Shown here: piece by piece, positions 29,877 through 41,767 of the stretch
Layout: every line of letters starts with the position of its first letter
How positions within the stretch are numbered: position 1 is the first letter of the stretch
NCBI GenBank assembly: GCA_030649165.1
Contig: JAUSGG010000153.1
Span: 1-46,731, forward strand
DNA: 46,731 nt
Origin: Armatimonadota bacterium
GTDB lineage: Bacteria > Armatimonadota > UBA5829 > JAUSEB01
Direction: 5' to 3'
Notes under the pieces: generated by a model
Told to the model about the DNA's origin: nothing
What the model saw: only the letters and a program-made list of their open reading frames with translations
The model's database searches: none
Translations under genes and position numbers: made by a program

Positions 29877-30920
29877 ATGCTGCGAATCGGCGTCGTGGGC
29901 GCGTCCGGCTATGCCGGAGGAGAACTGATCCGGATACTTTTGGGGCATCCGGAAGCGCGTCTCACGTACGTCGGGTCCGAGACCTACAAGGGCCAGTCGA
30001 TCGCCAAAGCCTTCCCCAGTCTTCACGGCTCCGACGCGCCTGTGTGCGAGTCCCCGGACGCCGGCGCCGCGGCTGAGAAAGCCGACTTAGTTTTCCTCGC
30101 GCAGCGCAACGGCTGGGCGACGCAGTTCGCGCCGAAGCTCCTGTCGGCGGGCAAGAGCGTGGTGGACTTCAGCGCGGATTTCCGGTTCCGGGACGGGGCG
30201 GTTTTCCAGAAGTGGTATAAGCTGGACAGCCCATCCGCGGAGATCCTGAAGAGCGCCGTCTACGGCCTGCCCGAAACGAGGGCGGATGAGATCAAATGTT
30301 CCTCGCTTGTCGCAAATCCCGGGTGCTATCCGACGGGGGCAATTCTCGCGTTGACGCCGCTACTGGCGAACCGGCTGATCGACCCATCGACCATAATAGT
30401 CGATTCCAAGTCAGGGGTTTCGGGGGCCGGGCGGTCGAAATTCGAGCTTGGCTATCTGTTTTCCGAGTTGGAAGGCAATCTCAAGCCTTACAACATCGGC
30501 GTTCACCGGCACACGCCGGAGATAGAGCAGGAGCTGAGCGCGGTCGCCGGGTCGCCGGTCACGGTGTCGTTTACTCCGCATCTCGTGCCGATGGTTCGAG
30601 GCATACTGACCACCACTTATGCGTCGCTGGCCGGGCAGGCGGAGACGGCGTCGCTGATCGATCTCTACCGCGACTTCTACGCAAAAGCGCCGTTTGTGGT
30701 CGTGTTTGGCGAGGGCGAATATCCGGCGACCAAGAACACCCAGGGATCAAACTATTGCCATATCGGGCTGAAGGTTGACGACCGGACCGGACGAGTCGTG
30801 GTTGTTTCCGCGATAGACAACCTGGTGAAAGGCGCCGCGGGCCAGGCCGTGCAGAATATGAACATCATGTGCGGGCTCGACGAGCGCGCGGGGCTGGGTT
30901 CTGCCGCGCTTTATCCGTAG
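29877..30920 (+). CDS. argC: N-acetyl-gamma-glutamyl-phosphate reductase
   Basis: 347 residues with the family's full length. The NADP-binding opening is RIGVVGASGYAGGELIRILL; the catalytic Cys is in VANPGCYPTGAILAL (GCYP motif); later landmarks are VDSKSGVSGAGR, GVHRHTPEIEQEL, FTPHLVPMVRGILTT and KGAAGQAVQNMN. It catalyses the NADPH-dependent reduction of N-acetylglutamyl-phosphate in the third step of arginine synthesis, in the cytoplasm. It is the first gene of the arg cluster, behind its own promoter, with a GAGGCG ribosome site. Nothing unusual seen. Confidence 0.97.
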   Translation: MLRIGVVGASGYAGGELIRILLGHPEARLTYVGSETYKGQSIAKAFPSLHGSDAPVCESPDAGAAAEKADLVFLAQRNGWATQFAPKLLSAGKSVVDFSADFRFRDGAVFQKWYKLDSPSAEILKSAVYGLPETRADEIKCSSLVANPGCYPTGAILALTPLLANRLIDPSTIIVDSKSGVSGAGRSKFELGYLFSELEGNLKPYNIGVHRHTPEIEQELSAVAGSPVTVSFTPHLVPMVRGILTTTYASLAGQAETASLIDLYRDFYAKAPFVVVFGEGEYPATKNTQGSNYCHIGLKVDDRTGRVVVVSAIDNLVKGAAGQAVQNMNIMCGLDERAGLGSAALYP

Positions 30921-30976: not shown

Positions 30977-31150
30977 ATGGCTTTCGAATACAAGGTATTG
31001 CTGGTTGAGCCATCGTGGAGCGCGGCGGCGGGCCGGGAGAATATCGAAAACGAACTGAATGAGCTGGGCAAGGAGGGCTGGGAGCTTATACCAATCACCC
31101 TCGACGGCTATTTGCTGCTGCAGCGGGCGAAGTCGGATGCAAAGGGTTGA
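30977..31150 (+). CDS. Small DUF4177-like protein (57 aa) between argC and argJ
   Basis: ATG 30977 is preceded by TTGGAGG (30960-30966). The sequence has the pattern of small DUF4177-type proteins: MAFEYKVLLVE at the start, then NELNELGKEGWELIPI and a final strand YLLLQRAK. Its stop overlaps the argJ start by 14 bp, so the two are probably translationally coupled. Function is unknown; its place inside the arginine operon suggests a minor regulatory or structural role there, but that is only inference. Confidence 0.7.
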   Translation: MAFEYKVLLVEPSWSAAAGRENIENELNELGKEGWELIPITLDGYLLLQRAKSDAKG

Positions 31151-32336
31151 CGGCGGCGTAACCGCGCCGAAGGGCTTCAGGGCGGCGGGCGTGCGGTGCG
31201 GGATCAAGCAGGCAGGGCCCGACCTGATGCTTTTGGCTTCGGACGTTCCGGCGACGGCGGCAGGCGTTTTTACAACGAACGCGGTAAAGGCAGCGCCGGT
31301 TCTGCTTTCGCGGGAACGGATCGATGGGGGCACGGCGCAGGTTGTTATCGCCAACAGCGGCAATGCAAATGCCTGCACGGGAGCGCAGGGAATGGCAGAC
31401 GCCGACCGGATGACGGAGCTTGTCGCGTCGGCCCTGCGGCTGAACAAGGACGAGGTCCTGGTCGCGTCTACTGGGATAATCGGCCAGCATTTGCCGATGG
31501 AAAAGATCGAGACCGGCATCGCCGTCGCCGTCGCCGCGCTGTCGTTCGACGGCGGAGACGCTGCCGCTCGGGCGATAATGACGACTGACACGCGGCCAAA
31601 GTCGATCGCCGTTGAGTTCGAGACCGGCGGCAAATCGGTCCGCATCGGCGGGATGTGCAAGGGCGTCGGAATGCTGGCTCCGAATATGGCGACGATGCTG
31701 GCGTTCATCACGACCGACGCGAAAATCACGCCGAGGGCGCTGCGGAAATGCCTGGCGCGATCGGCTGAGATTTCATTCAACTGCGTGACCGTGGATGGCG
31801 ATATGAGCACCAACGATTCGGCGTTCATACTTGCCAACGGGATGGCCGAGAACCCGGTCATAGACGGCGAGGGGCCGGATACGGATGAGTTTCAGGCCGC
31901 GCTCGACACGGTGACGGTGCATCTGGCGCGAGAGATCGCAAGAGACGGTGAAGGCGCGACCAAGCTGGTGGAGATTTGCGTGAATGGCGCCGCGACTGCC
32001 GATGACGCCAGAAGCGTGGCCATAACGATAGCCAATTCGCCGTTGGTGAAGACCGCCATATTCGGGCGGGATCCGAACTGGGGCCGCGTATTGGCGGCCG
32101 CGGGGCGCGCCGGCGCGCAGATGGACCCGGATAAGACGGACCTTTACTTCGGCGACGTCAGGGTTTTCGAGCAGGGCGAGCCGACGCGCGTCGATGCGGA
32201 AGAAGCCAGGCGACCGATGCTCGCGGACGAGTTGGTGATTACGGTCGAGTTGAACATCGGCGAGGCGTCGGCCAAAGTCTGGACCTGCGACTTCTCTTAT
32301 GATTACGTGAAGATCAACGCAGAGTACCATACGTGA
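31137..32336 (+). CDS. argJ: Glutamate N-acetyltransferase / amino-acid acetyltransferase (ArgJ)
   Basis: I start it at ATG 31137 (MQRVDGGVTAPKGFRAAGV), which matches the family N terminus; the open frame runs 26 codons further up, through the small gene. Key features: GVFTTNAVKAAPV, IANSGNANACTGAQG, and the self-cleavage site in CKGVGMLAPNMATMLAFITT, where the chain breaks between Ala and Thr and Thr becomes the nucleophile; then NCVTVDGDMSTNDSAF and GRDPNWGRVLAAAGR. 399 residues. It recycles the acetyl group from N-acetylornithine to glutamate and, if bifunctional, also makes N-acetylglutamate from acetyl-CoA, which would explain the lack of argA here. Confidence 0.96.
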   Translation: MQRVDGGVTAPKGFRAAGVRCGIKQAGPDLMLLASDVPATAAGVFTTNAVKAAPVLLSRERIDGGTAQVVIANSGNANACTGAQGMADADRMTELVASALRLNKDEVLVASTGIIGQHLPMEKIETGIAVAVAALSFDGGDAAARAIMTTDTRPKSIAVEFETGGKSVRIGGMCKGVGMLAPNMATMLAFITTDAKITPRALRKCLARSAEISFNCVTVDGDMSTNDSAFILANGMAENPVIDGEGPDTDEFQAALDTVTVHLAREIARDGEGATKLVEICVNGAATADDARSVAITIANSPLVKTAIFGRDPNWGRVLAAAGRAGAQMDPDKTDLYFGDVRVFEQGEPTRVDAEEARRPMLADELVITVELNIGEASAKVWTCDFSYDYVKINAEYHT

Positions 32337-32482: not shown

Positions 32483-33361
32483 ATGCCATATTCTTCCGAA
32501 CAAGCACAAATACTGACTCAGGCTTTGCCTTATATTCAGCGGTACTCCGGCAAGACCATCGTTATCAAGTACGGCGGGCACGCGATGGTGGACGAGGAGC
32601 TGAAGCGGTCCGTCATGCGGGACATCGTGCTCTTGCGGTGCGTCGGCATGAATCCGATACTTGTGCACGGCGGCGGCCCCGAGATCACCGAGGTAATGAA
32701 GAAGATCGGCAAGGAGCCGAAATTCGTCAACGGTCTGCGCTTCACCGATTTGGAGACGATGGAGATCGTGGAGATGGTCCTTTCCGGCAAGACCAATAAG
32801 AGCCTTGTTTCTCTGATCAACCAGCAGGGCGGGCGCGCGGTCGGTCTGAGCGGCAAGGACGCCAATCTGATCGTGGCGGAGAAGGCTGAGTCTGATGGTG
32901 ATGACCTTGGTTTTGTCGGGCGAGTCAAGCAGATCAACCCCCAGATATTGGAGATATTGGCTCGTGAGGAGTATATCCCTGTGATTTCTTCCGTAGCTAT
33001 TGGCCCGAACGGCGAGAGCTTCAATATGAACGCGGATGATGTTGCTAGCGCGCTTAGTGTTGCAGTTAAGGCCGTCAAGCTGATTATGATGACTGACGTT
33101 AAGGGCATTTACGATGACAGGAACGACGAGTCAACTCTGTACTCATTGCTAAAAATCGAGGAAGTCGGGAATATGATGCGATCAGGCAAGATAGACAAGG
33201 GCATGATTCCCAAAGTCAAGGCCTGCACAGATGCAATCATAGAGAGCCACAAAGCTGGCAGACACATAGAGACGCATATAATAAACGGCTCCGAGCCGCA
33301 CGCGCTGTTGATGGAGATTTTCACGGATACGGGTATTGGGACGATGATCGAGGCCGGTTAG
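32483..33361 (+). CDS. argB: Acetylglutamate kinase
   Basis: 292 residues. Amino-acid-kinase fold with the phosphate-binding KTIVIKYGGHAM, the substrate loop LVHGGGPEITEVMKK, VGLSGKDANLI, NMNADDVASALSVAVKAVKL and MTDVKGIYDD. The N-terminal helix before the core (SEQAQILTQALPYIQRY) is the type found in hexameric, arginine-inhibited enzymes, so feedback control is likely. It phosphorylates N-acetylglutamate with ATP, the second step of the pathway. It lies about 145 bp after argJ, separated by repeat sequence. Confidence 0.97.
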   Translation: MPYSSEQAQILTQALPYIQRYSGKTIVIKYGGHAMVDEELKRSVMRDIVLLRCVGMNPILVHGGGPEITEVMKKIGKEPKFVNGLRFTDLETMEIVEMVLSGKTNKSLVSLINQQGGRAVGLSGKDANLIVAEKAESDGDDLGFVGRVKQINPQILEILAREEYIPVISSVAIGPNGESFNMNADDVASALSVAVKAVKLIMMTDVKGIYDDRNDESTLYSLLKIEEVGNMMRSGKIDKGMIPKVKACTDAIIESHKAGRHIETHIINGSEPHALLMEIFTDTGIGTMIEAG

Positions 33362-33457: not shown

Positions 33458-34684
33458 ATGGCAGTGGCGCGGGAGACCAAGAGCGGCATAGACTACGATA
33501 AGATCGTGGGGACGTACAGGCAGTACGTTATGGATACGTACGGCGGTCGCCAGCCGATCTCTTTGGCGCGCGGCGCGGGGGTCGAGGTGTGGGACACTAC
33601 CGGCAAGCGTTATCTTGATTTCCTCGCGGGTATCGCCGTAAACGGTCTGGGTCACTGCCATCCGGGCGTGGTCAACGCCATTCGGGAACAGGCCGGAATC
33701 CTGATGCACGTCTCGAACCTCTACTACACAGAGTCTCAAGCCAGGCTGGCGAAGATGCTCGTGGAATGGTCTGAAATGGACAAGGCTTTTTTCTGCAACA
33801 GCGGGGCGGAGGCAAACGAGGCCGCCATCAAGCTGGCGCGAAAGTGGGGCAAGTCCAAGGGATCCGATCAGAAGTTCGAGATTGTCACGGCCCTGGAGTC
33901 GTTCCACGGCAGGACTATGGGCGCTATTACGGCGACGGGCCAGCCCAAGTATCAGAAGTCGTTTGAGCCTCTAGTTCCGGGATTCAAGTACGTTCCCTAC
34001 AATGACGTTGAAGCGCTGCGCTCCACCGTCACCGACGCCACGTGCGCGGTCTTGCTCGAACCGATTCAGGGCGAGAGTGGGGTCCACCCCGCCAGCAAGG
34101 AGTACCTGGCCGCGGCTAGGAAAGCCTGCGACGAGGTCGGCGCGCTTTTGATCTTTGACGAAGTGCAGACGGGGTTGGGAAGGACGGGCCGGATGTTCGC
34201 GTATGAGCACTATGGCGTCGCGCCCGACGTGATGACGCTCGCCAAGACTCTGGGCGGCGGCTTTCCCATCGGCGCGTGCCTTGCCAGGGATGCCGCGGCT
34301 GAGGTGTTCCAGCCGGGAGACCACGCCTCGACATTTGGCGGAAATCCGCTCGCCTGCGCGGCCGGCATCGCGGCGATGACCGCGTTGCACGAGGAGGCTC
34401 TTGTCGAGAACGCGCGGGACGTGGGCGAATATTTCGCGAGTAAGCTCAGGACGTTCAAGAGTAAGCGAGATGATGTAATCGAAGTGCGGGGGATGGGCCT
34501 GCTGTTGGGAATCGAGTTTGCCACGCCGGTGGCGAGGACCATTGCCGGACAATGCCTGGAACTGGGGCTGATTGTGAACGCGATAGGGGACCGGATCATC
34601 CGCTTCCTGCCGCCGCTTGTAGTGACCAGAAAGCATGTGGACGAGGCGATGTCGATTCTCGCGGAGGCCGCGGGGGCGTTGTAG
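33458..34684 (+). CDS. argD: Acetylornithine aminotransferase
   Basis: 408 residues, class III PLP-dependent aminotransferase. Landmarks: GVEVWDTTGKRYLDFLAGIA, FFCNSGAEANEAAIKLARKW, SFHGRTMGAITATGQPKYQ, VLLEPIQGESGV, LLIFDEVQTGLGRTG, the PLP lysine in VMTLAKTLGGGFPIGA, and HASTFGGNPLACAAG. It makes N-acetylornithine from the semialdehyde and glutamate. ATG 33458 follows a GGACGTAGGAC ribosome region. Gene order argB-argD is standard. It could also serve lysine synthesis, as ArgD enzymes often do. Confidence 0.96.
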   Translation: MAVARETKSGIDYDKIVGTYRQYVMDTYGGRQPISLARGAGVEVWDTTGKRYLDFLAGIAVNGLGHCHPGVVNAIREQAGILMHVSNLYYTESQARLAKMLVEWSEMDKAFFCNSGAEANEAAIKLARKWGKSKGSDQKFEIVTALESFHGRTMGAITATGQPKYQKSFEPLVPGFKYVPYNDVEALRSTVTDATCAVLLEPIQGESGVHPASKEYLAAARKACDEVGALLIFDEVQTGLGRTGRMFAYEHYGVAPDVMTLAKTLGGGFPIGACLARDAAAEVFQPGDHASTFGGNPLACAAGIAAMTALHEEALVENARDVGEYFASKLRTFKSKRDDVIEVRGMGLLLGIEFATPVARTIAGQCLELGLIVNAIGDRIIRFLPPLVVTRKHVDEAMSILAEAAGAL

Positions 34685-34787: not shown

Positions 34788-34820
34788 ACCTCCCCCTAGC
34801 CCTCTCCTGGGAGGAGGGGG
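34788..34820. repeat. C-rich intergenic hairpin before argF
   Basis: CCTCCCCCTAGCCCTCTCCT opposite GGGAGGAGGGGG. It is of the same family as 21261 and 41822; it may act as a pause or attenuator between argD and argF, which is inference. Confidence 0.5.
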
Positions 34821-34845: not shown

Positions 34846-36387
34846 ATGTGGCAGCGGTTTACGGAAAGGGCAAGACGGGCAGTGTTTTTCGCCCAGGAAG
34901 AGGCGGGACGACTCGGTGACAATTACGTCAGCGTCGAACACCTGCTGCTGGGACTAATCACAGACAGCGAGAGCGCTTCCGCCAGGATTCTTCGGGGAAT
35001 GGGCGCGAGCTTGAACGAGATTCGAACGCAGGTCGAACAGCAGGTCCCGAGGCGGGACGCAAGACTCGGTCAGGACATGCAGCTTACGCCGCGAGCGAAG
35101 AGAGTGATCGATCTCGCATACGACGAAGCGAGGCAGCTACGTCACGACCACATAGGAAGCGAGCATCTGCTTCTCGGGGTGATCCGAGAGGGCGACAGCG
35201 CGGCGGGCCGCGTGCTCGCCAATATGGGTGTTGATATAGAGCGAGCAAGAGAGATAGCCACTGGATCGGACAAGGTTCAGCAACACGCAGGAGGGACAGC
35301 CGAGGAGGCCGAAGCCGTCTCCGATCTGCTTTCGGTAGCGGGCATGTCGGAAGACGACAAACGCCGGGCAAGGGACCTGATAGCTCGCTTACGCAGCGGA
35401 GGGGTCGCGAAAGTATCGACAAGCGGAGAGACGGTCAGTTGCCTCCGGACGACGCAGCTAAGGGGCCGCGACTTGCTTTCAATTGCCGATCTGAACGCTG
35501 AGGAGATCGACCTTGTTTTCTCCACCGCCGCGCTCCTCAAGCAGGGCGTGAAGGAGAAGCGGTCGCAGTCGTCGCTGCTGGAAGACAAGACGCTGGCGAT
35601 GATCTTCGAGAAGCCGTCGCTACGGACCAGGGTCACATTCGAAGTCGCGATGACGCAGCTCGGCGGACATGCGATCTACCTGCAGCCGTCGGATATAAGT
35701 CTCGGCGTCCGGGAGAGCATAGCAGACGCCGCCCGAAACCTGGAGCGGTGGGTGGACGTGATAATGGCCCGGGTTTTCTCGCATAACACTGTGGCGGAAT
35801 TGGCCGAACACGCCCGAATTCCGGTAATAAACGCGCTGAGCGACCTGGAGCACCCGTGCCAGGCGCTGGCGGACGTCTACACCATTCGGGAGCACAAGGG
35901 CGAGCTGAAAGGTCTGAAGCTGGCTTACGTAGGCGACGGCAACAACTGCTGCAACAGTTTGCTGCTGCTCGCGGCGAAGGTCGGGACCAGCATGTCGGTC
36001 GGCTGCCCGAAGGGATTCGAGCCTAATCCCGACATAGTTGCCGCGGCGAAGAAACTGGTCGAGGAGACCGGCGCCGTTATCGAGATAACGGATGACCCGG
36101 CTGCCGCCGTCAAGGACGCCGACGCGGTATACACGGACGTTTGGGCGAGCATGGGGCAGGAGTCGGAGAAAGCCGAGCGAGAGAAGATATTCCCGCCTTA
36201 CCAGGTCAACGACGAGCTTCTAAAGCATGCGAAGGAGGACGCCATATTCCTGCACTGCCTGCCGGCTCATCGCGGCGAAGAGGTGACCGATGAGGTAATG
36301 GACGGACCGCATTCAGTGGTGTTCGACGAGGCCGAGAACCGGCTGCACGTGCAGAAGGCGTTGCTTGTGCTTCTCGTGGAGGGGTAG
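34846..36387 (+). CDS. argF: Double Clp_N domain fused to ornithine carbamoyltransferase (513 aa)
   Basis: One uninterrupted frame. Residues 1-~145 are two ClpA/ClpC-type N-terminal repeats (FTERARRAVFFAQEEAGRLG then EHLLLGLI; LTPRAKRVIDLAYDEARQLR then EHLLLGVIREGD). A linker (about 145-195) follows, and ~197-513 is a complete ornithine carbamoyltransferase: carbamoyl-phosphate loop SLRTR (S258), DISLGVRESIADAARNL, HPCQALAD (H336), VGDGNN, DVWASMGQE and the ornithine-side HCLPAHRGEE (C471). Normal ArgF is ~300-340 residues, so about 195 are extra. No AAA ATPase part is present. ATG 35344 (residue 167) could be an internal start, but no clear ribosome site precedes it. The enzyme converts ornithine to citrulline; the Clp_N part normally binds substrates or adaptors for Clp proteases. 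The meaning of the fusion is unknown. Confidence 0.93.
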   Translation: MWQRFTERARRAVFFAQEEAGRLGDNYVSVEHLLLGLITDSESASARILRGMGASLNEIRTQVEQQVPRRDARLGQDMQLTPRAKRVIDLAYDEARQLRHDHIGSEHLLLGVIREGDSAAGRVLANMGVDIERAREIATGSDKVQQHAGGTAEEAEAVSDLLSVAGMSEDDKRRARDLIARLRSGGVAKVSTSGETVSCLRTTQLRGRDLLSIADLNAEEIDLVFSTAALLKQGVKEKRSQSSLLEDKTLAMIFEKPSLRTRVTFEVAMTQLGGHAIYLQPSDISLGVRESIADAARNLERWVDVIMARVFSHNTVAELAEHARIPVINALSDLEHPCQALADVYTIREHKGELKGLKLAYVGDGNNCCNSLLLLAAKVGTSMSVGCPKGFEPNPDIVAAAKKLVEETGAVIEITDDPAAAVKDADAVYTDVWASMGQESEKAEREKIFPPYQVNDELLKHAKEDAIFLHCLPAHRGEEVTDEVMDGPHSVVFDEAENRLHVQKALLVLLVEG

Positions 36388-36394
36388 GCTCAGG

Positions 36395-36468
36395 GAAGAA
36401 CGCAGATGAACGCGGATAAATGCGGATAAACGCGGATCAGGAGAGGGAGTTAGTCAGACACGTCTGAC
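36395..36468. repeat. Dispersed GAACGCAGATGAACGCGGAT repeat and GTCAGAC palindrome
   Basis: GAACGCAGATGAACGCGGAT, then AAATGCGGATAAACGCGGAT, then a palindrome GTCAGAC-AC-GTCTGAC (36453-36468). It lies between argF and argG. Confidence 0.6.
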
Positions 36469-36511
36469 ATGTCGGGCTAGTCGGACGGCTTTGAGACAGA
36501 GAGGAGAAACA

Positions 36512-37699
36512 ATGAAAACTGTTGTTCTTGTCTATTCCGGGGGGCTGGATACCTCCGTTTGTATTCCGATGATGCGGGAAGACTATGGCTTTGAGCGCGT
36601 GGTGACAGTTACCATCGACGTGGGCCAGCCGGAAGAGGACATCAAGGTCGCCGCCGAGAAGGCGAAGGCGCTGGGGACCGAGCACTATACGGTTGACGCC
36701 AAGGACGAGTTCGCCCGCGAGTACATCTTCCCTGCTGTCAAGGCAAACGGCGACTATCAGGGCTATCCGCTCAGCACGGCAATAGCCAGGCCGCTAATCT
36801 CCCTGAAGGCCGTGGACGTGGCGAAGAAGGTCGGCGGCGACGCCTTTTGCCACGGCTGCACGGGCAAGGGCAACGACCAGTTCCGCATCGAGTTTGTTAT
36901 GATGGCGCTCGCCCCAGACCTGGCGATCATCGCCCCGATGCGCGAGAAGAACCTCACTCGAATAGAGGAGATTGAATACGCAAAGGCGCACAACGTTCCG
37001 ATTGCGCAGAGTATAGATAAGATTTGGAGCGTGGACGAGAACATGTGGGGCCGGTCAATCGAAGGCGGGCGGCTGGAAGAGCCTGACTACTTCCCGCCGG
37101 AGGAGATATACGAATGGACCGTAAGCCCGCGGGAGGCGCCGGACAAGGTCGAAGAGCTGGCGGTCGGCTTCGAGAACGGCGTTCCGGTCAGTCTCAACGG
37201 GCAGATTATGCCTCCCGTCGAGCTGATCATGAAGGTGAAGGAAATCGCGGGGCGCAACGGCGTCGGGCGGATCGACGTTATGGAAGACCGCATGCTCGGC
37301 CTGAAGGTCCGGGAGAACTACGAATGCCCCGCCGCCGTCACGCTCATCACGGCGCACAAGGCCCTGGAAGCCCTCGTCTGCACCAAGGACGAGCTTTTCT
37401 TCAAGTCGATGGTCGACCGCAAGTGGGGCGAGTTGGCCTACGCCGGACTGTGGTTCGACCCGCTGAAGGAAGACCTCGAAGCCTTCATTAACAAGATTCA
37501 GGAGCGGGTGACCGGCGTTGTGCATTTGAGGCTGTACAAGGGCAGCGTGACGGTCGCCGGCCGGTCGAGCAAGTTCGCGCTGTATTCCGAGGATTTGGCG
37601 TCGTTTGACAGCAAGACCTTCGTGCAGTCGGAGATGACGGGGGCGGTGAAGGTGCATGGCCTGCAGGCGAGGATGTATCGGGGGTTGAAGAGGAAGTAG
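36512..37699 (+). CDS. argG: Argininosuccinate synthase
   Basis: The start is ATG 36512 behind GAGAGGAG, giving 395 residues; the frame continues to 36491 without need. The ATP-binding P-loop is VVLVYSGGLDTSVCIPMM, followed by IDVGQPEEDIKVAAEKAKAL, the FCHGCTGKGNDQFRIEF block with the GCTGKGND citrulline/aspartate loop, IDKIWSVDENMWGRSIEGG, and a C-terminal MYRGLKRK tail. It joins citrulline and aspartate using ATP. The cluster then breaks: five non-arg genes and toxin-antitoxin sequence lie between argG and argH. Confidence 0.97.
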   Translation: MKTVVLVYSGGLDTSVCIPMMREDYGFERVVTVTIDVGQPEEDIKVAAEKAKALGTEHYTVDAKDEFAREYIFPAVKANGDYQGYPLSTAIARPLISLKAVDVAKKVGGDAFCHGCTGKGNDQFRIEFVMMALAPDLAIIAPMREKNLTRIEEIEYAKAHNVPIAQSIDKIWSVDENMWGRSIEGGRLEEPDYFPPEEIYEWTVSPREAPDKVEELAVGFENGVPVSLNGQIMPPVELIMKVKEIAGRNGVGRIDVMEDRMLGLKVRENYECPAAVTLITAHKALEALVCTKDELFFKSMVDRKWGELAYAGLWFDPLKEDLEAFINKIQERVTGVVHLRLYKGSVTVAGRSSKFALYSEDLASFDSKTFVQSEMTGAVKVHGLQARMYRGLKRK

Positions 37700-37767: not shown

Positions 37768-38634
37768 ATGGCTAAGTGTCCGAAATGCGGCGCTGAGAAC
37801 AAGCCGGACAGCGCAGCCTGTGTGAATTGCTACACCCCCCTGGAATCCGGGCCGGTAGATAGGTCGTCCGGACCGCAGCCGAACCCGGCGTCTAAGACGC
37901 TTGGTCGGCCGCCTCGCGCCAGACCTGCCAAGCCCCGCCGCAGCCCTGGGAGTGTCGTCGGCATCGTTGTGTTGATTCTGATCTTGCTCGCTGGCGGTGG
38001 CTGTGCGTACTGGAAGCTCGTCTATCTGCCCAACAATCCGACCCCGATCGAGGTCGTGCGCGCACTCATCAGGGCGTCGGAAACTGGTGACAAGGAATCC
38101 ATGAAGAAATATGTGGCCACTTGGTCACCCGTCCATTATAACGGGCTCATTGCCATAGGCGGCATCGTGACGGTGATACGTGGCATGGCAGGCCAAGGCA
38201 GGGTCGCCAATGCCGAGGGGCCTGTCTTGGGGAGGGTTGCGAGTCTGAAGGAAGGCCGGGACTTCACTCTTGACCCTGCATCGTCGGACGAGATGACGGC
38301 AAAGGTGAGATACAGGATTCTACCAACAACTGTTGACAAGGTGCTCGCGCGGACCGAGGATGTCCTGCACTTGCCCGTGTACGATTTTCGCCTCAGACCA
38401 GTGGAGGTCGGGGAGAGCCTGAGGGAGCGAATGAAGGGAATCATCACGAACGAGCTCAATAGGGGATTCGAGATCACCCTGACGAAGCAATCGGGGAAAT
38501 GGAGAATTGTCGATACAAAGACATACGCAGCCTCCGGCCGGCTGGCTCTCAGCCTTGATAGGGAGCTGCAGAGCCTTCCCGATGCACGGTGCCGCATGAT
38601 GGGCGTTATGGTGGCCGTACAGCTCCTGCCCTAG
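37768..38634 (+). CDS. Zinc-ribbon membrane protein of unknown function (288 aa)
   Basis: The N terminus is a zinc ribbon (CPKCGAENKPDSAACVNC, C-x2-C...C-x2-C). A Pro/Arg-rich linker follows, then one transmembrane helix (about residues 65-86, VVGIVVLILILLAGGG). The remainder (about 90-288) is a soluble domain outside the membrane, with TPIEVVRALIRASETGDKES and VDTKTYAASGRLALS near the ends, resembling DUF4878/NTF2-like lumazine-type stress domains in layout but not clearly any one. A good ribosome site (GGAAGGAG) precedes ATG 37768. It is unrelated to arginine synthesis. Confidence 0.75.
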   Translation: MAKCPKCGAENKPDSAACVNCYTPLESGPVDRSSGPQPNPASKTLGRPPRARPAKPRRSPGSVVGIVVLILILLAGGGCAYWKLVYLPNNPTPIEVVRALIRASETGDKESMKKYVATWSPVHYNGLIAIGGIVTVIRGMAGQGRVANAEGPVLGRVASLKEGRDFTLDPASSDEMTAKVRYRILPTTVDKVLARTEDVLHLPVYDFRLRPVEVGESLRERMKGIITNELNRGFEITLTKQSGKWRIVDTKTYAASGRLALSLDRELQSLPDARCRMMGVMVAVQLLP

Positions 38635-38708
38635 AAGCTCCCTGGGCGGAGATTTCCGAATCGCCACCTCAAAGCCAAAACGGGATCTCCGAATCCCAGA
38701 GGGAAACG

Positions 38709-38873
38709 ATGAAACTCAAAGTCGTAATCCACGAAGAAGAAACCGGCGGCTACTGGGCCGAGGTTCCTGCGATACCCGGCTGCGCCACACAAGGTGAGAC
38801 CCTTGAGGAGTTGCTGCGAAACGTTCATGAAGCGGTTCAAGGGTGCCTTTCGGTTGAGGTCGCGGCGGCTTGA
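38709..38873 (+). CDS. Orphan HicB-type antitoxin (54 aa)
   Basis: A short protein consisting only of the HicB partial RNase-H-like fold: MKLKVVIHEEETGGYWAEVP, AIPGCATQGETLEELLRN and VHEAVQGCLS. No HicA lies next to it on either side and it lacks the C-terminal DNA-binding part of full HicB proteins, so it is an orphan or regulatory remnant. ATG 38709 follows AGAGGGAAACG. The HigBA module begins just after it. Confidence 0.8.
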   Translation: MKLKVVIHEEETGGYWAEVPAIPGCATQGETLEELLRNVHEAVQGCLSVEVAAA

Positions 38874-38900
38874 CGCCTCGCAGCCCCATCACGGCTGCAG

Positions 38901-38933
38901 CCATTCTATTAACCCTTAGGGTGAATAGAATGG
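38901..38933. promoter_or_regulatory. 33-bp near-perfect inverted repeat, likely HigA operator
   Basis: CCATTCTATTAACCC - TTA - GGGTGAATAGAATGG, one mismatch in 15 pairs. It ends exactly where the -35 box at 38934 begins. The core AACCCTTAGGGT resembles operators of HigA-type antitoxins. Confidence 0.75.
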
Positions 38934-38962
38934 TTGACAAGTCGCGTTAATATGGATATAAT
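38934..38962 (+). promoter_or_regulatory. Perfect consensus promoter overlapping the higB start
   Basis: TTGACA (38934-38939), 17-bp spacer, TATAAT (38957-38962). The -10 box lies inside the toxin gene, 5 bases after its ATG at 38952, so RNA started here would lack the toxin start codon. Confidence 0.75.
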
Positions 38963-39290
38963 ATTCAGGACGAGTAAACTGGAGAAGCTGTGCAACAACA
39001 AATCCTACCGGGAACGCGAATGCGGTCCTGTGCGGGCCAAACTACTTGGGCGACGTATGGATGATCTTAGGGCGTCGACTTGCCTTGCGGACATAGCGAG
39101 ACTTCCGCAGACGCGATGTCACGAACTTGTGAAAGATCGAGACGGGCAGATATCACTCGATCTAGACCACCCGTATCGGCTAATTTTTACTGTTGCCAAT
39201 GAACCTGTTCCGGTCAAGCCCGATGGCGGCTTGGACTGGAGCAGAGTGACAGCCATCAAGATTATGGGAGTGGAGGATACCCATGGTTAG
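38952..39290 (+). CDS. higB: HigB-type toxin (RelE/ParE superfamily, 112 aa)
   Basis: The opening MDIIFRTSKLEKLCN is the usual N terminus of this HigB-like group, which fixes ATG 38952; then RRMDDLRAS, LPQTRCHELVKDRDGQISLD and LDHPYRLIFTV, as in RelE-fold killer proteins that cut mRNA on the ribosome. At 112 residues it has the standard length. It overlaps the antitoxin gene by 8 bp. There is no obvious ribosome site, and the strong promoter box lies just after the start codon, so the toxin must be made from an upstream transcript or weakly. Sited between argG and argH. Confidence 0.85.
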   Translation: MDIIFRTSKLEKLCNNKSYRERECGPVRAKLLGRRMDDLRASTCLADIARLPQTRCHELVKDRDGQISLDLDHPYRLIFTVANEPVPVKPDGGLDWSRVTAIKIMGVEDTHG

Positions 39291-40383
39291 CGCTATCGAG
39301 AACCGGTACGTACCAGACTATGTTTCCCCACCTGGCGAGACTCTGCTCGATACCATCGAAGCGCTTGGTATGTCTCAAGCGGAGCTTGCGGAGCGCACAG
39401 GCAGACCGCCAAAGACGATCAGTGAGATCATCAAAGGCAAGTCCGCCATTACTTCGGAGACGGCGCTGCAACTCGAGAAGGTTCTTGGAGCGCCCGCTTC
39501 GTTCTGGACGAGCCGCGAACGGCACTATCGTGAATCGCTTGCAAGGCAGAAGGATCAATCTCGGCTTCAAGAACAGATCGACTGGCTGAAGAACCTTCCT
39601 GTCAAAGCGATGTGCGCCGAGCGTTGGATTCGCCGCTTTGACGACAAGGTTCAGCAATTGCGGGAGGTGCTGCGCTTCTTTGGGGTTGCCTCTCCCGCAG
39701 CCTGGCACGAAGTATGGCGCGGTCCTCAGGTTGCATTTAGGCAGTCAAAGGCCTTCGAAAGCGACCCGGGCGCTGTTGCAGCTTGGTTAAGAAAGGGAGA
39801 GATCAAGGCTCAGTCTATACAGTGCAATCCGTATGATCCGGTCTCGTTCAGGAAAGTCCTCAACCGCGCCAGAGGACTCACCGTTGAGCCTCCAGAAGTC
39901 TTTCAGCCGCAGCTTGTTCAGATGTGCGCGGACGTCGGAGTCGCTGTGGTTTTTGTGCCGGAACTCCCGAAGACCAGGCTATTCGGCGCCACGCGTTGGC
40001 TGTCCCCAAACAAAGCGCTCATCCAGCTTAGTCTCAGATACAAGACGAACGACCATCTCTGGTTCACTTTCTTCCATGAAGCCGGGCACATACTCTTGCA
40101 CGGTAAGCGCGATGTGTTCATTGAATCCGAGAGCGACAAGGGAGCTAAGGAGTCTAAGGCAGATCGGTTCTCTGAGGATTGCCTTATCCCGCGGGCCGAG
40201 TATCACGCCTTTGTTAGGTCACGCGCAAGGAGCAAGATAAAAGTAAGGAGTTTCGCTGACGAGATCGGCATAGCTCCTGGTATAGTAGTTGGCCGGCTTC
40301 AGCACGACGGCAAACTGCTCCAGAGCCATCTGAACAGCCTCAAAAGACACTATCACTGGGTTCGTAACGCAGAAGCTGCCTGA
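39283..40383 (+). CDS. higA: HigA-type antitoxin fused to ImmA/IrrE metallopeptidase (366 aa)
   Basis: Residues ~16-75 are the HigA helix-turn-helix (PGETLLDTIEALGMSQAELA, TGRPPKTISEIIKG, ITSETALQLEKVLG). The remainder is a COG2856-like domain with the zinc-protease motif HEAGH (H265, E266, H269) in LWFTFFHEAGHILLHGK and the following Glu-rich helix KESKADRFSEDCLIP. It should repress through the inverted repeat at 38901 and neutralise HigB. The peptidase part could allow self-cleavage or stress-triggered release, as in ImmA/ImmR systems; whether it does is unknown. The coding overlap of 8 bp with higB indicates translational coupling. Its stop is 5 bp before argH, so argH may be expressed from this unit. 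Confidence 0.88.
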   Translation: MVSAIENRYVPDYVSPPGETLLDTIEALGMSQAELAERTGRPPKTISEIIKGKSAITSETALQLEKVLGAPASFWTSRERHYRESLARQKDQSRLQEQIDWLKNLPVKAMCAERWIRRFDDKVQQLREVLRFFGVASPAAWHEVWRGPQVAFRQSKAFESDPGAVAAWLRKGEIKAQSIQCNPYDPVSFRKVLNRARGLTVEPPEVFQPQLVQMCADVGVAVVFVPELPKTRLFGATRWLSPNKALIQLSLRYKTNDHLWFTFFHEAGHILLHGKRDVFIESESDKGAKESKADRFSEDCLIPRAEYHAFVRSRARSKIKVRSFADEIGIAPGIVVGRLQHDGKLLQSHLNSLKRHYHWVRNAEAA

Positions 40384-40387
40384 TAAC

Positions 40388-41767
40388 ATGAAAAAACCCT
40401 GGTCCGGCAGATTTACAAAACCAACTGACGAGACGGTCGAAGCATTCACTGCGTCGATACACTTCGACGCCCGGCTGCTTGAGTACGACATCCTCGGCAG
40501 CATCGCGCACGCCAGGATGCTGGGCAAGACGGAGATCATACCGGCGGCAGATTCGGAGCAGATAGTTTCGGGGCTGGAGCAGGTTTTGGTCGGCCTCAAG
40601 AGCGGGAATGCGCGGCTTGACCCGTCCCTCGAAGACGTCCACATGAACGTGGAAGCGCTGTTGGCGGAACGGATCGGCGAGGTGGCCGGCAAGCTGCATA
40701 CGGCGCGGAGCCGGAACGATCAGGTCGCGACGGACGTGCGGATGTACCTCAAGGACGAGATCGACGCCGTTTCGGGCCTGATCAAGGCGCTGCAGCGGAC
40801 TATCGTCGGGCAGGCGCAGGAGAACTTGGACATCGTGATGCCGGGCTACACACATCTGCAGCACGCACAACCCGTGCTGTTGTCGCATCATCTAATGGCT
40901 TACTTCTGGATGCTTCAGCGCGACGCGGAGAGGCTGGCGGATTGCCGGAAGCGGGTGGACGTGCTGCCGCTTGGCTCCGGCGCGCTGGCGGGAACGCCGT
41001 TTCCCATCGACCGGGAATTCGTCGCCAAAGAATTGGGCTTTTCGACCATATCGCAAAACAGTATGGATGCCGTCGCCGACCGGGATTTCATCGCGGAATT
41101 TCTCGCGGCCTGCTCCATCATAATGGCGCACCTGTCGCGGTTCTCGGAGGACATTATTCTGTGGAACTCGCATGAGTTCAAGTTCATCGAGCTTGACGAT
41201 TCCGTCACCACCGGCAGCAGCATTATGCCGCAGAAGAAGAATCCGGATGTTGCCGAATTGGTCCGGGGGAAGACAGGCCGGGTGTACGGCGATCTGATCA
41301 GTCTTTTGACGGTCATCAAAGGCTTACCGATGACCTACAATCGGGATTTGCAGGAGGACAAGGAGCCGCTGTTCGATGCTGTGGATACGGTGAAGGGCTC
41401 GCTTGAGGTGTTCGAGGTGATGCTGCGGTCCGCTAAGTTCGATGCGAAACGGATGGCGGAAGATCTGCGGGGCGACTTCTCCACGGCTACCGACCTTGCC
41501 GATGCCACAGTCATATACGGGAAGCCTTTCCGGGTGTCGCATGAGATGACGGGCAAACAGGTGCGGAAACTCATCGAATCCGGCAAAGGGCTTGAGGATT
41601 TGACCGCTGAGGACGTACAGGAAATGGCTGTGGACCCTGCTTTCCTGCTGAAACGAATTGACCCTAAGGGCAGCGCCGCCGCGAAGAACGTTCCCGGCGG
41701 CACGGCGCGGGAACGGGTCGAGGAGCAGATCGCAGCAGCGTTGGAGATTCTGGGGGCGCAGCCATAA
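40388..41767 (+). CDS. argH: Argininosuccinate lyase
   Basis: 459 residues. Signature block GSSIMPQKKNPDVAELVRGK with the catalytic Ser in its flexible loop, plus MKKPWSGRFTKPTDETVEAF, HMNVEALLAERIGEVAGKLH, TARSRNDQVATDVRM and GYTHLQHAQPVLLSHHL. It splits argininosuccinate into arginine and fumarate, the last step. The start lies 5 bp after higA, so its expression now seems tied to the toxin-antitoxin unit and no longer to argG. A C-rich hairpin follows at 41822. Confidence 0.97.
   Translation: MKKPWSGRFTKPTDETVEAFTASIHFDARLLEYDILGSIAHARMLGKTEIIPAADSEQIVSGLEQVLVGLKSGNARLDPSLEDVHMNVEALLAERIGEVAGKLHTARSRNDQVATDVRMYLKDEIDAVSGLIKALQRTIVGQAQENLDIVMPGYTHLQHAQPVLLSHHLMAYFWMLQRDAERLADCRKRVDVLPLGSGALAGTPFPIDREFVAKELGFSTISQNSMDAVADRDFIAEFLAACSIIMAHLSRFSEDIILWNSHEFKFIELDDSVTTGSSIMPQKKNPDVAELVRGKTGRVYGDLISLLTVIKGLPMTYNRDLQEDKEPLFDAVDTVKGSLEVFEVMLRSAKFDAKRMAEDLRGDFSTATDLADATVIYGKPFRVSHEMTGKQVRKLIESGKGLEDLTAEDVQEMAVDPAFLLKRIDPKGSAAAKNVPGGTARERVEEQIAAALEILGAQP

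Follow-up and report, generated by a model that had tools for sequence, protein, structure and literature searches.

A ClpC-type Clp_N module fused to ornithine carbamoyltransferase in the arginine operon of Armatimonadota

Introduction

Clp_N domains are the port through which Hsp100 unfoldases receive substrates and adaptors. In one Armatimonadota bacterium (assembly GCA_030649165.1; 5.48 Mb, 266 contigs) a pair of these domains is encoded in a single frame with the ornithine carbamoyltransferase (OTC) ArgF, which raises the question of what a receptor of this kind does at the front of an enzyme of arginine synthesis. The window analysed here is the entire contig JAUSGG010000153.1 (46,731 nucleotides). 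Clp_N and OTC are each already known, and the novelty of the protein lies in the kind of accessory domain that the OTC carries. The open-access literature yielded no description of the Clp_N-OTC combination or its operon-level conservation, and none of an Armatimonadota OTC or of an OTC together with a Clp N-terminal domain.

Domain architecture of the fusion gene

The gene and its parts have the following positions in the window.

34846..36387, + strand: Clp_N::ArgF fusion gene, ATG start, one open frame, 513 aa
34846..35265, + strand: ClpC-type double Clp_N domain, residues 1-140 (Pfam PF02861; match to structure 5hbn; AlphaFold2 pLDDT mostly 85-96)
34891..35043, + strand: Clp_N repeat 1 (PF02861)
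35116..35253, + strand: Clp_N repeat 2 (PF02861)
35266..35454, + strand: linker, residues 141-203, in-frame and fast-evolving (AlphaFold2 model)
35467..35892, + strand: OTC carbamoyl-phosphate-binding domain (PF02729)
35617..35631, + strand: SLRTR motif, carbamoyl-phosphate loop (from the sequence)
35851..35862, + strand: HPCQ motif (from the sequence)
35908..36375, + strand: OTC ornithine-binding domain (PF00185)
36253..36282, + strand: HCLPAHRGEE motif (from the sequence)

The 513-aa protein has two Clp_N repeats, each a Pfam domain match above the cut-off, followed by OTCace_N at residues 208-349 (E 7.5e-51) and OTCace at residues 355-510 (E 1.2e-64). The NCBIfam equivalog for ornithine carbamoyltransferase, TIGR00658, matches with 435.8 bits against a cut-off of 280.85. 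These matches and the presence of all three motifs bear out the first-pass annotation of the locus, which had recognized a Clp_N pair, a linker and an OTC from the letters alone. Judged by profile and motifs, the fused OTC is a complete ornithine carbamoyltransferase. Pfam finds only Clp_N and OTC domains in the protein, with no AAA+ domains, no M-domain and no match to the PyrI regulatory domain. Stand-alone ArgF (TIGR00658; P. furiosus OTC, 1a1s) shares the whole catalytic domain and all motifs with the fusion, and the OTC part is 57% identical to 1a1s with a TM-score of 0.94. The fusion differs by the 140-aa double Clp_N and linker in front, which are found in none of the other-phylum OTCs examined.

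The AlphaFold2 model of the protein has a mean pLDDT of 85.6, and the Clp_N and OTC parts are both confident. The linker has low-confidence ends (residues 141-151 and 185-203) with two predicted helices between them. A fixed mutual orientation of Clp_N and OTC is not seen in this model (pTM 0.62) or in that of a homologue whose linker measures about 20 aa (pTM 0.67). Rigid docking of Clp_N on OTC was rejected as a reading on the basis of these two models.

Operon and genome context

The fusion gene is located between argD and argG, and the neighboring arg genes are as follows.

29877..30920, + strand: argC, operon context
31059..32336, + strand: argJ, operon context
32483..33361, + strand: argB (AA_kinase), operon context
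33458..34684, + strand: argD, directly upstream of the fusion
36491..37699, + strand: argG, directly downstream of the fusion
40388..41767, + strand: argH, operon context

The gene order is argC-argJ-argB-argD-Clp_N::argF-argG, then small genes and an HTH/IrrE gene, then argH. One further carbamoyltransferase-type gene (319 aa) is present in the genome; since it is presumably pyrB, the fusion appears to be the only OTC of the genome and its sole anabolic one. No match to ArgR (PF01316) was found in the whole genome, despite the complete arg operon. The clpC gene is on contig C36 of the same genome, and a McsB (ATP:guanido phosphotransferase) gene is just upstream of it.

Several other features of the operon were observed. 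The gap between argG and argH (38589-40383, + strand) contains a small HicB-like ORF and a HigB/RelE-like ORF, both labelled by eye, and a gene for an HTH and IrrE-type peptidase protein (PF01381, PF06114). These genes may be a toxin-antitoxin-like element inserted into the arg operon. A GC-rich palindrome, CTAGCCCTCTCCTGGGAGGAGGGG, is located at 34796-34819 (+ strand) and ends 26 bases ahead of the fusion start codon. It has 64 genome matches at up to 3 mismatches, compared to 0 for a reversed control, and represents a REP-like repeat family. The gap between the fusion and argG has a run of degenerate 10-base repeats of the ACGCGGATAA type at 36400-36439 (+ strand).

Integrity of the reading frame

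A frameshift or assembly join at 35200-35450, which the first-pass annotation had considered, is contradicted by the same single-frame Clp_N-OTC architecture in the nearest relative (G001, JAUSEB010000337.1, of another genus) and in independent assemblies. Among the latter are G084, which consists of 1 contig, and G068, with 7 contigs. The linker has a dN/dS below 0.4 in all nine computable pairs (range 0.04-0.39); therefore, it is translated and the frame through it is maintained. An assembly or frameshift artefact is ruled out by the independent genomes and this purifying selection, and chance adjacency of Clp_N and argF is ruled out by their presence at the same site in distant families.

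The alternative of translation from a start near 35344 only, with Clp_N as a gene of its own, had also been considered. The relatives in the alignment have no conserved counterpart of this in-frame Met, and a separate internal start therefore finds no support. A broader form of this idea is that the two parts act separately, with linker cleavage or a second start giving a free Clp_N, similar to the ClpC2 sponge or a regulator, and a normal OTC. The flexible, poorly conserved linker and the occurrence of Clp_N as its own gene in some relatives would be compatible with separate action; however, there is no conserved internal start and most relatives have short linkers of about 20 aa, so that it is very unlikely.

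Distribution of the fusion

The single-frame combination of the two domains was found, by profile search and locus reading, in 36 of the 291 Armatimonadota genomes, spread over 12 families. Thirty-five are single-frame profile matches covering both parts among the 291 genomes. The other is G084, whose Clp_N is more divergent and which was found by reading OTC loci. Seven of the 36 (G032, G101, G107, G108, G112, G121, G134) are known from the profile-search table alone. Clp_N is in frame with OTC at 29 of the 82 Armatimonadota OTC loci read, and four loci (G028, G042, G055, G088) have it only as a separate upstream gene. An additional separate Clp_N gene is found in six of the 29 fused loci; a separate Clp_N gene precedes the fused one in G020, G022, G026 and G027. 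The fusion is absent among the matches listed for 301 Chloroflexota and 299 Bacillota genomes, where the top matches are OTC alone. Five genomes of other phyla gave profile matches to OTC alone or Clp_N alone only, and Clp_N is absent from the flanking DNA covered by the analysis at 78 of 78 other-phylum OTC loci.

The position of the module is constant where argD and argF are kept together. It lies between argD and argF, fused or separate, in all nine operons read that keep these two genes together (G020, G026, G028, G029, G039, G046, G055, G084, G088). Where it is a gene of its own, the module is likewise part of the arg operon. The size of the module varies, with two Clp_N repeats in most genomes, four in G029 and G056, and six in an 885-aa frame of G046. 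In G028 and G042 a separate four-repeat Clp_N gene abuts argF. Outside argF, the Clp_N domains of 17 genomes are in ClpC, ClpB, other Clp ATPases or ClpB-looking fragments; the sole exceptions are two extra non-ATPase Clp_N proteins in G084.

Some loci have further peculiarities. The G046 locus (L008) has another Clp_N ORF ahead of its six-repeat frame, and its proximal Clp_N pair closely resembles the ClpC N-domain of the same genome, which suggests recent capture or gene conversion. In the G084 fusion (L202:6700-8574, - strand), the segment that separates Clp_N from OTC matches T2SSE weakly (E 8.8e-5, below the cut-off). A Clp_N protein encoded elsewhere in G084 (L214, 300-aa frame) carries an additional C-terminal region, which is similar by eye to this inter-domain segment. 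A second unusual OTC architecture occurs in other Armatimonadota, where OTC is in frame with an upstream acetylornithine aminotransferase-like domain (ArgD::ArgF; L164 of G092, L165 of G074, L166 of G098, L168 of G038) in frames of 704-748 aa. The profile search of the 291 Armatimonadota genomes found similarly long OTC frames in many genomes of family f16.

Selection and origin of the module

In ten pairs, dN/dS is 0.02-0.30 for Clp_N (below 0.2 in most pairs) and 0.02-0.09 for OTC. The low values for Clp_N indicate that it is under purifying selection. This selection bears on the explanation that the fusion is passive, where Clp_N was captured beside argF and has since been a passenger that contributes nothing to arginine metabolism. 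The presence of linked Clp_N is patchy, requiring 10 or more changes of state on the OTC tree, and Clp_N evolves faster than OTC in family f8; both observations count for this explanation. Purifying selection argues against passive carriage, however, as do the fused association in 12 families and the persistence of Clp_N::argF in G068 even though its argF is away from the other arg genes; this explanation is given hardly any likelihood.

In a tree of N-domains, the Clp_N domains of the fusions are interleaved with those of ClpC, and the f8 fusion N-domains group with f8 ClpC (support 91). This grouping hints at repeated capture or gene conversion from ClpC. A single origin, with one clade for the fusion N-domains, is not rejected (AU p 0.158).

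Candidate ligand sites and phosphoarginine

The N-terminal 136 residues match the structure of the B. subtilis ClpC N-domain, 5hbn, with an E-value of 2.1e-36, and the Clp_N part shares 74% identity with the ClpC N-domain of this genome. The B. subtilis ClpC reference row used for residue numbering agrees with the 5hbn alignment. The ClpC N-terminal domain (5hbn, 2y1q; PF02861) has the same double Clp_N fold and phosphoarginine-site residues as the fusion, but ClpC has AAA+ domains and an M-domain where the fusion has a metabolic enzyme instead. E32 and E106 are key residues of the two phosphoarginine pockets of ClpC and T7 is part of pArg1; R9 and R122 lie in the pockets or close to them, and the N-domain is anchored to AAA1 through K85 (PMC12583610). 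T81 and R83 were added in the present analysis as the repeat-2 counterparts of T7 and R9. The two glutamates are encoded at the following positions.

34936..34938, + strand: codon for Glu31, equivalent to E32 of ClpC in the alignment (pArg2 site, from PMC12583610)
35161..35163, + strand: codon for Glu106, equivalent to E106 of ClpC (pArg1 site, from PMC12583610)

The window protein is identical to its own ClpC at all eight sites (T7, R9, E32, T81, R83, K85, E106, R122), and these retained residues fit a working pocket. Of the 28 argF-linked modules in the non-redundant set, 27 have E32, 26 have E106, and all 28 have T or S at position 7. Glu106 is invariant in 25 of 25 fusions of alignment A1. 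Retention of the two glutamates is 0.95, compared to a mean of 0.69 for 95 ClpC-invariant sites (P ~0.05). The six-residue pocket is not retained above random ClpC-invariant sites (P 0.19). The Glu-His motif is also present in the ClpB of the same genome, and therefore the motif is not specific for phosphoarginine. Pocket conservation as proof of a phosphoarginine ligand is ruled out by the ClpB motif and the P of 0.19.

The remaining sites are more variable, with R9, R83, K85 and R122 kept in approximately 54-75% of the 28 modules. The relaxation of ClpC-internal contact residues (R122 and R9, ~0.56) might indicate that Clp_N is a structural or interaction scaffold, which would hold OTC trimers or tether another arg enzyme without ligand control. 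The flexible linker, the expansion to four or six repeats and the neighboring argD and argG are in line with a scaffold. However, the two ligand glutamates are among the best-kept polar sites and a candidate partner was not identified, which makes a scaffold decidedly unlikely.

McsB was detected in 26 of the 29 fused genomes (the exceptions are G005, G046 and G093), in 18 of the 45 unfused ones and in none of the four where Clp_N is only a separate gene. The association of McsB with the fusion corresponds to about four independent contrasts and is not significant; it is suggestive only for this reason, and McsB co-occurrence as proof of a phosphoarginine link is ruled out. Free arginine at 1 mM does not activate S. 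aureus ClpC (PMC12583610), so that protein phosphoarginine or a changed specificity would be needed.

The interpretation in the first-pass annotation is partly supported, and its link to phosphoarginine has evidence on both sides. A ClpC-type Clp_N, intact residues at eight of eight sites and a McsB gene beside clpC favor it, whereas the ClpB motif, the pocket statistics and the genomes with undetected McsB do not. The case for phosphoarginine specifically as the signal is weak.

Turnover or regulation

The main rival to a regulatory role is Clp-dependent turnover, where Clp_N would make the OTC a regulated ClpCP client. Bound adaptors or phosphoarginine proteins would bring the OTC to ClpC and it would be removed on starvation or stress. 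Such delivery of ArgF to a Clp protease is possible from the sequence, where the ClpC-type groove and pocket residues are kept. The Clp_N domain is, however, the receptor domain of ClpC and to our knowledge is not known as a degron. On an OTC, its effect would be competition with ClpC for adaptors, not docking to ClpC. In B. subtilis starved of glucose, ClpCP degrades PyrB, a homologous transcarbamoylase (PMC5746743), but the precedent ClpC2 is a sponge and not a substrate (PMC10030653). Mycobacterial ClpC2 is, like the fusion, a ClpC N-domain copy outside the ATPase; it serves as a sponge for cyclomarin, binds DNA, is autoregulated and has an N-terminal dimer domain of its own (PMC10030653). 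It differs in being a stand-alone Clp_N protein with no described link to argF. Turnover is considered unlikely as the role of the module, and scaffolding, separate action and passive carriage are less likely than turnover.

A dedicated regulatory chain has a precedent in design on a homologous transcarbamoylase. PyrI exists on aspartate carbamoyltransferase as a separate chain. In PyrB-PyrI it follows the catalytic part, whereas Clp_N precedes the OTC in the fusion. The PyrB-PyrI fusion (NF009916) is the named precedent for a regulatory chain fused to such an enzyme; PyrI is known both separate and fused, and Clp_N is separate in G028, G042, G055 and G088 and fused elsewhere. PyrI is unrelated to Clp_N and the likeness is in design only.

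The Clp_N front end probably regulates the OTC. The evidence counted for a regulatory module includes the spread over 12 families, the fixed operon site, the repeat expansion, the purifying selection, the lack of ArgR in the genome, the retained glutamates, the McsB gene beside clpC and the near absence of other non-ATPase Clp_N proteins in the 17 genomes. Phylum-wide conservation and the form as a separate arg-operon gene shift the likelihood toward a dedicated regulatory chain. That Clp_N controls or tethers ArgF, as was suggested from the window alone, is the best available reading given this conservation and the place of the module in the arg operon. In a fuller form, where the pair is a ClpC-derived regulatory module coupled to arginine or to phosphoarginine/McsB-ClpC status, the chance is put a little short of even. 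The narrower version, in which the ClpC N-domain has become an allosteric sensor for arginine or for phosphoarginine on proteins and wires McsB/ClpC to arginine synthesis, is tentative and on balance doubtful.

According to the regulatory reading, the Clp_N pair would act on OTC as PyrI acts on aspartate carbamoyltransferase. Since OTC leads to arginine, the ligand of the ClpC N-domain, an arginine guanidinium with a phosphate, is the obvious candidate signal. The pockets may bind a guanidinium-type ClpC ligand, either protein phosphoarginine made by McsB or arginine and arginyl groups; alternatively, the ligand may be a ClpC adaptor. Binding would change the activity, assembly or availability of OTC, following the arginine or protein-stress state of the cell.

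Implications

The end product of the OTC pathway carries the chemical group that is recognised by the ClpC pockets, and the fusion may link arginine synthesis to the arginine-phosphate protein-control system. If this is true, a connection between arginine phosphorylation and arginine metabolism would be testable with one purified protein. The Clp_N domain would be a portable regulatory module, and it would represent a second design for transcarbamoylase regulation besides PyrI. The argD-argF junction of Armatimonadota would then hold a previously undescribed direct wire from McsB/ClpC quality control to arginine synthesis.
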